Positions 3,952-25,208 of a stretch of DNA of 64,000 bases are shown here, piece after piece. Origin of the DNA: Colwellia sp. GTDB lineage: Bacteria > Pseudomonadota > Gammaproteobacteria > Enterobacterales > Alteromonadaceae. The DNA lies in assembly GCA_013215655.1 (NCBI GenBank), contig JABSOX010000012.1, positions 65,608 to 129,607 of the forward strand. Reading direction: 5' to 3'. A program made the translations under genes and the position numbers. Below the pieces are notes generated by a model, which had not been told where the DNA came from, made no database searches, and worked only from the letters and a program-made list of their open reading frames with translations. Positions within the stretch are counted from its first letter, which is position 1. Every line of letters starts with the position of its first letter.

Positions 3952-4234
3952 ATTGACCAGTTTAGTGACTAATGTGAACCTATGTCAAGCAAAGTTTCGA
4001 AAAATCGATCTGGCTGAAGGTCAATAAAATTGAGGTCTTTAAGGAAGTTTATGAATTTGTGGGGTTTTGTGGATCTCGAGCCCAATTAATTAGAAATAAT
4101 TCGTCTAAAAAGTCGTTTTTAGCGAAAAAATAGACTATGCCTATGGATAAAGTGGTTGGTCATCCCAAGCCGAATCGATTTTTCATATGTGCTGCTTTTT
4201 AAAACATTCATGGAGTAAATAAATTTGGTAAAAA

Positions 4235-13412: not shown

Positions 13413-13727
13413 TATACCCGTTGCCATTCAAAGTGCATGATTTCAGTTGGAGTTATAAGCACTTTAAGCGAGGCATTCATTTTAGATAATGGTCATTCTC
13501 GGAAAATGCGTCCTGCGTTGCCCTAATGGTCCACATCCATGTGGAAACCTTGTCACAATGAATAACGTGGCATAAAGTGCTTATAAACCAACCCAGAGGG
13601 GACTACTGAGCAAACCATGCTCGTCGTTGTCTCTTTTTTTAAGGGAATGACCATTAATAAAAAGAGACGCCTTGACCATGAATTGCTCAGTAATCCTGAA
13701 ACATGCATCTTGATTGGCAACGGGTAT
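13413..13727. repeat. Structured inverted-repeat element, copy 1 (MITE-like)
   Basis: 26-bp terminal inverted repeats (23/26) ATACCCGTTGCCATTCAAAGTGCATG / CATGCATCTTGATTGGCAACGGGTAT; homologous to 24905-25166. Confidence 0.85.
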
Positions 13728-14763: not shown

Positions 14764-16731
14764 CTAACCACCAAGTAATTTACTAATAAAGTTACGTTCA
14801 GACTCCTGACTTTTAACAAAAAGTTTAGTACTTATCTCTTGGGAAAGGCGTGCTTGAATGAACTCAGAAATAGAACGTGCATAATCAGCATCTTGTATAC
14901 GAGAACGTGAACTCTCAGATTGGATCATTGAATCAGATAAATTGCTAATGGTGGAGATGAAACGCGATTGAGTAGCTCCTAAACTACTACGCGCTTCACT
15001 AACTTGATTGATAAGATTATCGATGCTGCTAATTAAATCCCCCGAATTTTCAACCGTAGCCACATTGCCGCCAGTGTTTGTAGAAAATCCACCAACATCA
15101 CTTAATCCTAATTTACTGATTGCTGCACTTTGTGATGATATATCAGCATTGGAACTAATATTAATTTCGCCTCCGTTACTTGCACTTAAACTCATTTCAC
15201 CACGTTGACTAAAGTTATTATTAATTGCCGTGCCATTTTGACTCAGTGCAGTTGCACCATTATCAATATTGATATCTTGCCCTGAGTTTGAGCTTAATAC
15301 TAATTCGCCATCAACATTACTACTTGCCGTAATATCGCCTATGCCTGCTGCGTTCACTTGGCTAATAACGTCACTCAATGAACTTCCAGAGAAGCTACTA
15401 AAAACGTCAACCCCATTAATCGTTAAGTTATTATTTTGTAATGCCGAAACATCTGCGCTGAATTCAACTTGTGTATTAGCCGTTGCCGTTACGCCCGTTT
15501 CATTGCTGATATTATTAATTGCTTGGCTAATGTCACTAGCATTAATTGTTGAACCGCTAGTGCCTACGCTTCCAAGTGCTACGCCATTAATTTCAATACC
15601 ATCAGCTTGACTAATACTTTGTCCTGTTACTTGACCACCAGAAAGTGATGAAGCACCTTGTTGCTGATTAAAACCAAATATTTTTAAATCATCAATACTA
15701 CCGGTATCCGTTGTGGAGATTGAGATATCATCGCCGTTTGCGCTCGATAAACTAATACTTCCAGAGTAATTTCCAGCACTTAAACCTAAGCTACCTAACC
15801 CGCCAACAGTATTATCCGCTAAAGTAATATCTTTTCCGGTGTTATTGTATATTTGCAATGAACCATCACTACCAATTTTTGCTTCAGCACCTGCAACATT
15901 AAGATTAAAGTCTTTAACAAAATCATTAAGATTCGCCGAACTGCCTAACGTCGTAGTATTACCATCAACCGTTACGCTAATGCCTTGAGTTATCGGTTGA
16001 TTGGCATTGACACTGCCGCCTTGAATGACATTACTTGCGGTCGCGGTAACGCCTGTTTGCCCCGATACTTGATTAATTAAATCGGTTTTTACATCTGCTT
16101 GTCCCGCCGTTGATGCCGCTAAAGCGCCAAGCTCAACACCATTAAGACTAATGCTTCCGGCACTAACGCCCGCAGTTGCCGCATCAACTCGGCCACTTTC
16201 TAAATCTCCCGAGGCACTATTTAATCCACTCGTTAAACTACTGCTTGAAAAACTACCCAGTTCAAGGGAAATACTTTGGTTAAAACCGACTTGTATATTA
16301 AGTGAAGTATTATTCTCAAAAACATTAATACCGTTAAATCTTGTATTTTTACCAATATCGCCAAGTTGATCAGTTAACTGATTAATTTCTTCTTGAATAT
16401 TATCGCGATTTGAATCATTTAATGTACCGTTACCCGCTTGTACCGCTAATTCTCTAATTCTTTGCAATACATCATTGGCACCACTTAAGGCTCCATCAGC
16501 GACTTGTGTTAAAGAAATCCCGTCATTGGCATTACGAATTGATTGATTATTTTCTCGAATTTGCGAAGTAAGTAGGTTAGCAATGGCCAGACCTGCGGGA
16601 TCATCTTTTGCGCTATTAATACGCTTGCCTGAGGTTAATTTTGAACTTGCATCAAATAATGCTTGTTGACTTTTTTGCAGCTGGAAAGCACCTTGCATAT
16701 TTCTAACCATAGAACCAACAGTGATCATCAT
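14764..16731 (-). CDS. Flagellin, large variant with extended central domain
   Basis: Conserved flagellin N-terminus (ASSKLTSGKRINSAKDDPAGLAIANLLTSQIRENNQSIRNANDGISLTQVADGAL) and C-terminus; central flagellin-IN-like repeats. Confidence 0.92.
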   Translation of the reverse strand: MMITVGSMVRNMQGAFQLQKSQQALFDASSKLTSGKRINSAKDDPAGLAIANLLTSQIRENNQSIRNANDGISLTQVADGALSGANDVLQRIRELAVQAGNGTLNDSNRDNIQEEINQLTDQLGDIGKNTRFNGINVFENNTSLNIQVGFNQSISLELGSFSSSSLTSGLNSASGDLESGRVDAATAGVSAGSISLNGVELGALAASTAGQADVKTDLINQVSGQTGVTATASNVIQGGSVNANQPITQGISVTVDGNTTTLGSSANLNDFVKDFNLNVAGAEAKIGSDGSLQIYNNTGKDITLADNTVGGLGSLGLSAGNYSGSISLSSANGDDISISTTDTGSIDDLKIFGFNQQQGASSLSGGQVTGQSISQADGIEINGVALGSVGTSGSTINASDISQAINNISNETGVTATANTQVEFSADVSALQNNNLTINGVDVFSSFSGSSLSDVISQVNAAGIGDITASSNVDGELVLSSNSGQDINIDNGATALSQNGTAINNNFSQRGEMSLSASNGGEINISSNADISSQSAAISKLGLSDVGGFSTNTGGNVATVENSGDLISSIDNLINQVSEARSSLGATQSRFISTISNLSDSMIQSESSRSRIQDADYARSISEFIQARLSQEISTKLFVKSQESERNFISKLLGG

Positions 16732-24748: not shown

Positions 24749-24895
24749 ATGAATACACAAACACCGCCCTTGTTTGTTATAGAAGAAGAGTTGGAAAGTA
24801 AATTAATAACTACTAATGAAAAAAACAATGAAGAGCCTACAAACCTTTATGAAAAGGAAGGTGATGAAAAGTTTTTTATTAAGGGGTACAACTAG
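24749..24895 (+). CDS. Small ORF, 48-aa acidic peptide (not in the ORF track)
   Basis: ATG preceded by AATGAGG; translates MNTQTPPLFVIEEELESKLITTNEKNNEEPTNLYEKEGDEKFFIKGYN*. Confidence 0.4.
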   Translation: MNTQTPPLFVIEEELESKLITTNEKNNEEPTNLYEKEGDEKFFIKGYN

Positions 24896-24904
24896 TTGAG
24901 TTAT

Positions 24905-25166
24905 ATACCCGTGATACTTCAAACTGCATGATTCAGTTGGAATTAGAAACGTTTTAGGCAAGGCATTGATTGTAGAGAATGGTTATTCCCTTATCAAAAT
25001 CTATAACGAAGCATAAAGCGTTTATAAACCAACCCGTAGGGGACTTCTGAGTAAATCATGCTCGTCGTTGCATCTATTTAAAGGGAGCAACCATTAATAA
25101 AAAGATGCGCCTTGATCATGAATTACTCAGCAGTCCTGAACAAGCATTTTGAAGTAACACGGGTAT
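24905..25166. repeat. Structured inverted-repeat element, copy 2 (MITE-like)
   Basis: 26-bp TIRs (23/26) ATACCCGTGATACTTCAAACTGCATG / CAAGCATTTTGAAGTAACACGGGTAT; shares internal blocks (CATGCTCGTCGTTG, ACCATTAATAAAAAGA, TTATAAACCAACCC) with copy 1. Confidence 0.85.
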
Positions 25167-25208
25167 AGATAATTAATAACAATAAAAAATATCTAACGGG
25201 TGGTAATA

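Follow-up and report, generated by a model that had tools for sequence, protein, structure and literature searches.

Two related palindromic elements in the window

The window, that is, the whole 64,000-nt stretch of DNA that was analysed, contains two related palindromic elements, here called copy 1 and copy 2. Copy 2 lies about 40 nt upstream of the start codon of an NSS symporter gene, between this gene and a 48-aa ORF (24749-24895, plus strand) that precedes both and has no Pfam match. The presence of two related elements at these places, as had been claimed, was upheld by 82–84% identity across two conserved halves of 91 and 64 nt. Copy 1 belongs to a 315-nt subfamily with an additional insert of about 50 nt; its left target TA is intact (13413-13414) and the right one is mutated to TC. 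The boundaries of copy 2 were set by the TA-duplication model, as read on a nested copy in locus L061. The features are given below in window coordinates.

24904..24905, unstranded: left TA of copy 2, target-site duplication (from the sequence and TA-flanked aligned copies)
24906..25165, unstranded: copy 2, MITE body TACCCG...CGGGTA, 260 bp (from the sequence and homologues)
24906..24936, plus strand: left terminal inverted repeat and outer stem of copy 2; including the TA it reads TATACCCGTGATACTTCAAACTGC and matches IS630 and ERIC ends
24937..25032, unstranded: left arm hairpin, reverse complement of the module CGTT-stem-AAGGGAATAACCATT-stem-GCCTTG (from the fold; lower stem, helix 2, paired in 98% of cells)
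24959..24971, minus strand: candidate IHF site in the left arm, AATCAATGCCTTG against the consensus WATCAANNNNTTR, a lead only
24978..24992, minus strand: left-arm core motif, reverse complement of AATGGTTATTCCCTT
25040..25136, unstranded: right arm hairpin, the same module as the left arm in the opposite orientation (from the fold; helix 7 paired in 93%, with 11 doubly changed pairs)
25081..25095, plus strand: right-arm core motif AAGGGAGCAACCATT
25136..25165, minus strand: right terminal inverted repeat and outer stem of copy 2; its reverse complement including the TA reads TATACCCGTGTTACTTCAAAATGC
25166..25167, unstranded: right TA of copy 2, target-site duplication (from the sequence)
13415..13726, unstranded: copy 1, long-subfamily element whose left-arm loop carries an additional insert of about 50 nt

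No transposase gene is present inside the element, there being no ORF of at least 80 aa in its 260-315 bp, and two ORFs at copy 1 (52-55 aa) are without any sign of being genes. An Rfam search of the window at gathering thresholds returned nothing but one tRNA. The insert of the long subfamily (window 13490-13548) is placed within one arm's core and is built from two small hairpins, one GGCAACTGCGTCCTGCGTTGCC-like and the other CCACATCCATGTGG; a comparable insert occurs in L061:520-900 and L062:505-830, and in other subfamilies it is found in inverse orientation. The window also holds a 655-aa flagellin-like ORF (14764-16731, minus strand) with a long, variable-looking middle region.

Compared with shuffles of their sequences, both elements have far more stable folds (copy 1, z −11.4; copy 2, z −9.8). 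In the predicted shape, the terminal inverted repeats pair as an outer stem, accompanied by one small hairpin and two long arms that resemble a single module, GCGTT-stem-AAGGGAATAACCATT-stem-GCCTTG, in opposite orientations. The compensated positions listed in the original prediction had been read correctly, apart from one A.A mismatch that also arises in the outer stem of copy 2. The proposed crossing helix stood only in part: double changes do occur in the pairing of the loop motifs, few as they are, but they do not prove a pseudoknot, since arms that are inverted copies of one module give complementary loops from that alone. The blocks CATGCTCGTCGTTG and TTATAAACCAACCC, described as unpaired and more constant, turned out to lie mostly within stems; their conservation is 0.92-0.94 in the close set of copies and an unexceptional 0.78-0.82 in the wide set, and it is the truly unpaired columns that have the lowest mean conservation (0.79 and 0.70, respectively). 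Matches to the IHF consensus number 10 in the window against 8.6 expected by chance, so the left-arm match alone is not significant.

A dispersed intergenic family flanked by TA

In Colwellia and its relatives the element forms a dispersed family of intergenic MITEs. At least 20 matches lie in its own genome, which is one of 12 with matches among 39 good genomes searched. This genome has 74 occurrences of the terminal motif, whereas the reversed control gave none. In named genomes, nearly all exact left-arm matches are from Colwellia and Alteromonadaceae, with one from Thalassotalea; plasmids gave four partial matches, from Pseudoalteromonas, and phage records gave none. All 31 copies examined are intergenic, none lying inside an ORF of 100 aa or more, and frequently only a few bases separate a copy from the end of a gene. 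The 30 copies classified by gene context lie between tandem (19), divergent (6) or convergent (5) genes.

Evidence for mobility comes from the TA dinucleotides, which flank 24 of the 30 aligned copies on both sides. In one clean case, a nested copy (L061:3669-3932) splits the sequence GTGTTTATAAACCAGCC with the TA duplicated, as seen by comparison with the uninterrupted sequence in other copies. The many intergenic copies and the insertion at TA support the earlier proposal of a mobile or dispersed family. In a comparison of joined flanks with congeners only coding parts aligned, and no exact empty site in a sister strain was found; related genes without the element were seen, and in three congeners there was no TATACCC-ended pair beside them. 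Orphan TATACCC ends at L069, L070, L077 and L080 were taken as truncated copies and set aside. A second nested insertion is located in L279 near position 4148, where an element of the TACCC type lies within the left arm of one of the TACCAA type.

The copies fall into size classes of about 46 bp (outer stem only), 160-190 bp (one arm), 264-269 bp (two arms) and 315 bp or more. Elements of 46-50 bp with the outer stem only look as if the arms had been cleanly removed (L072:3571-3616, L076:3915-3960, L065:431-477 and L067:427-476). The two-arm elements mostly retain AAGGGAATAACCATT, and in the one-arm elements of L063 and L079 the core is altered to the self-complementary AAGAGAATAACTATTCTCT; this difference between some one-arm and two-arm elements could be due to chance or to subfamily history.

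Terminal repeats shared with ERIC and IS630

To relate the element to known repeats we used an ERIC query, which was confirmed by hits in 5410 of 5426 E. coli genomes, and all comparisons were made on the sequences retrieved. Against a Klebsiella ERIC, the left end of copy 2 has 2 mismatches in 27, with none such in the control, and the ERIC left end in turn matches an IS630 end (L187) at 21 of 24 positions. The terminal repeat TATACCCGT.ATACTTCAA.CTGCATG, at 2 mismatches in 27, is thus common to the element and to ERIC, also known as IRU or RU-1 (MITEEc1; MITEPlu5 of Photorhabdus, 123 bp). Like the element, ERIC has TA at its ends, is intergenic and forms a long hairpin, and comparison of the folded sequences revealed the same internal GCGTT/GCCTT loop. 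However, the element is about twice as long (260-315 bp versus 127), has two arms where ERIC is a single hairpin, and has the core AAGGGAATAACCATT in place of the CCCCAG...CTGGGG hairpin of ERIC; this central hairpin, the region of the ERIC-PCR primers, is absent from the sequence of copy 2. Because length, arm number and central hairpin differ, the element is not ERIC in the strict sense. Its hosts differ as well, being Colwellia and relatives, whereas ERIC has previously been reported from enterobacteria and Vibrionaceae (PMC10969869, PMC2267715).

RUP of Streptococcus pneumoniae, likened here by description, is gene-less, has IS630-type ends and inserts at TA as the element does, but it is a single short element (107 bp) without a two-arm body; it has been proposed to be moved by IS630-Spn1 (PMC2229807). 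YPAL (RU-2) of Yersinia, about 168 bp, is likewise a palindromic intergenic mobile repeat, but is reported to lack a terminal TA and to have duplications of 3-26 bp (PMC2229807). IS630-family insertion sequences (Tc1/mariner superfamily) have the same terminal repeats and TA target; by contrast, the element is without a transposase gene and its interior consists of palindromic arms.

IS630-family transposases with such ends are present in the same order, in agreement with the original prediction of a trans-acting transposase sharing the ATACCC end. An IS630 DDE domain, not found in the own genome, is present in 22 of 120 family members. L156 is an intact IS630 element of 1121 bp (NCBIfam IS630 match, 3.2e-66) with the ends TATACCCGTGATCATTGAAAATGC and TATACCCACGCTACTTCATTTTGC; its transposase has relatives in 30 of 395 genomes from the same order. 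We inspected the flanks of 13 IS630 elements, L156 included, and recognised 24 ends (both ends in 11 elements). All 24 carry TATACCC and match the ends of copy 2 at 16 or more of 24 bases, a level reached by only 4-6 of about 96,600 other positions. Two genomes of the genus of G014, a genome that holds many copies, contain IS630 elements with the right ends TATACCCAAGCTACTTCAAGATGC (L163) and TATACCCATCCCACTTCAAGATGC (L160). IS630 elements of the TACCAA type are also present (L159, with TACCAATCCCATTAA ends). These matches extend an observation made in 2018 on the ERIC-related MITEPlu5 of Photorhabdus, which resembles CCC-type IS630 ends with a TA target (PMC6267812).

Taken together with the TA signature, the matching ends suggest that IS630 transposases with these ends move the element. 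We regard the element, with considerable confidence, as a non-autonomous MITE of the IS630/Tc1-mariner kind and a larger, two-armed form within the ERIC superfamily. A transposase made elsewhere would bind the inverted ends TATACCC...TTCAA..TGC, excise the element and insert it at a TA, which would be duplicated. The own genome may have lost the transposase or never kept it, and the copies look like relics of past bursts.

Several observations count against this reading. A partner transposase in the same genome is usual, although not required for an old MITE, yet partner and copies are not found together: the IS630 DDE domain (DDE_3) gave no match in the own genome (G000) or in G007, G013 and G014, which are also rich in copies, and no gene was found between TATACCC ends in longer elements among 20 stretches examined in the own genome. 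The sister-strain comparison, as noted above, gave no exact empty site. Binding of a transposase at the ends does not explain the strong conservation of the internal arms. Finally, repeat ends are in many cases short, and it is conceivable that a TA-flanked end evolved by convergence.

Maintenance of the palindrome and of the two-armed body

For covariation counts, the structure of copy 2 was imposed on one alignment (A1) with 30 copies, drawn from the own genome and a single relative, and on another (A2) with 22 more divergent copies, some of them common to the first. Cells in which both sides of a pair had changed numbered 225 in A1, compared with 83.6 ± 9.2 in shuffled alignments and 10-44 with partners slid, and 252 in A2, compared with 92.5 ± 8.1 and 26-55. 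The slid-partner control preserves relatedness, which the shuffles do not, and the covariation excess is therefore real. Thus the compensatory changes hold over a wide alignment, and chance as their source is excluded.

As a source of paired changes, transfer of sequence from arm to arm has to be weighed. In close copies (3-15% divergent), single-sided changes outnumber double ones (700 versus 117). Doubly changed pairs lay next to each other in 16 cases where 2.8 were expected, and unpaired changes showed no clustering (0.92); the clustering of double changes is to be read with the caveat that rates differ from site to site and that sequence pairs are non-independent. The arms of inverted repeats are known to be homogenised when template switching takes place between them (PMC7202029, PMC8604942), and the clustered double changes fit arm-to-arm copying of this kind as a contributor. 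Gene conversion between arms, foreseen as an objection to selection on structure, is in this respect partly borne out. In its strong form, the argument would be that covariation is mainly mutational, imperfect palindromes being copied from arm to arm with no selection needed, which is compatible with the MITE reading. This is quite possible, although we would lean slightly against it: internal mismatches such as the GCGTT/GCCTT loop persist across genera without being levelled, some clustering could come from unequal site rates, and symmetric recognition of the ends also yields paired changes. Template switching probably contributes to the paired changes. Under the MITE reading, each lineage would keep the palindrome at the DNA level, the paired changes arising in part from symmetric recognition of the two ends and in part, probably, from one arm templating the other during replication.

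Selection on a folded transcript would also drive paired changes. In an RNA under selection, G-U is expected to dominate the mismatches. In mostly Watson-Crick stems we counted 36 G-T against 50 A-C mismatches in A1 and 39 against 59 in A2, whereas a 6S RNA control from relatives gave 46 against 7. With structures predicted afresh for each strand, the G-T:A-C counts were 34:32, 45:34, 33:38 and 56:26, so that only one of four readings (A2, minus strand, with its own predicted structure) leans towards G-T. Since G-T is not in excess over A-C, unlike in 6S RNA, the symmetry appears to be kept at the DNA level, and the structure is most likely maintained as a largely strand-neutral DNA palindrome. 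It is accordingly improbable that the element acts as a structured RNA or in mRNA stability, a role suggested for ERIC in the mRNAs of Yersinia, and the suggestion of selection on a functional RNA is left unsupported. The fold is very stable, the symporter start codon lies close downstream of copy 2, and ERIC in Yersinia is reported, in work cited in PMC2229807, to expose an RNase E site once transcribed; however, the copies have no preferred arrangement relative to genes, and the window has no Rfam match beyond the tRNA. More generally, where a repeat is palindromic, covariation alone does not argue for an RNA, and the G-T versus A-C count serves as a simple discriminator.

It is very unlikely that the host maintains the element as a transcription terminator or nucleoid-binding site, as had also been suggested: the examined copies are always intergenic, often close to a gene end, and the left arm has one IHF-consensus match, but convergent genes flank only 5 of the 30 classified copies, the element was not seen beside related genes in congeners, and its ends match transposons. 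That a Y1/HUH transposase uses the element as single-stranded DNA, in the manner of IS200/IS605 or REP/RAYT, is a reading for which long hairpins enclosing conserved unpaired motifs might speak. It is scarcely credible and not needed, because those systems have short hairpin units or ends without long inverted repeats or duplication, whereas the element has terminal repeats of more than 20 bp and a TA duplication in the nested copy, both pointing to a double-stranded IS630/Tc1 mechanism, and its ends match those on DDE-type IS630 elements.

The arms themselves are not confined to one kind of end. Among 73 classifiable copies, 54 have TACCAA-type ends, 16 have TACCC-type ends and 3 have neither, and most copies of both end classes are about 263-267 bp long; one two-armed body is therefore found on two kinds of IS630 ends. 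Because the GCGTT/GCCTT loop and the AAGGGAATAACCATT core keep a fixed spacing even with the other end type, the conserved arms probably serve the element, for example in host-protein binding or DNA shaping, and they may aid transposition. We would put forward only tentatively, and with some doubt, that selection acts on the two-armed body of about 265 bp as a unit in its own right. As a parasite of IS630 transposases, this body would retain its length and internal motifs while its ends change between TACCC and TACCAA; the arms would act as a transposition enhancer or host-protein platform, and ERIC would belong to the same superfamily with a single arm.

For decades ERIC repeats have served in strain typing, but what moves them has been uncertain, and a review of 2007 names no mover (PMC2229807). 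Intact IS630 transposases with ERIC-type ends can now be named, providing a concrete candidate mover and turning the matter into a directly testable question. Furthermore, the occurrence of one body with two kinds of ends suggests that repeats of this sort may swap ends and in this way make use of different transposases.
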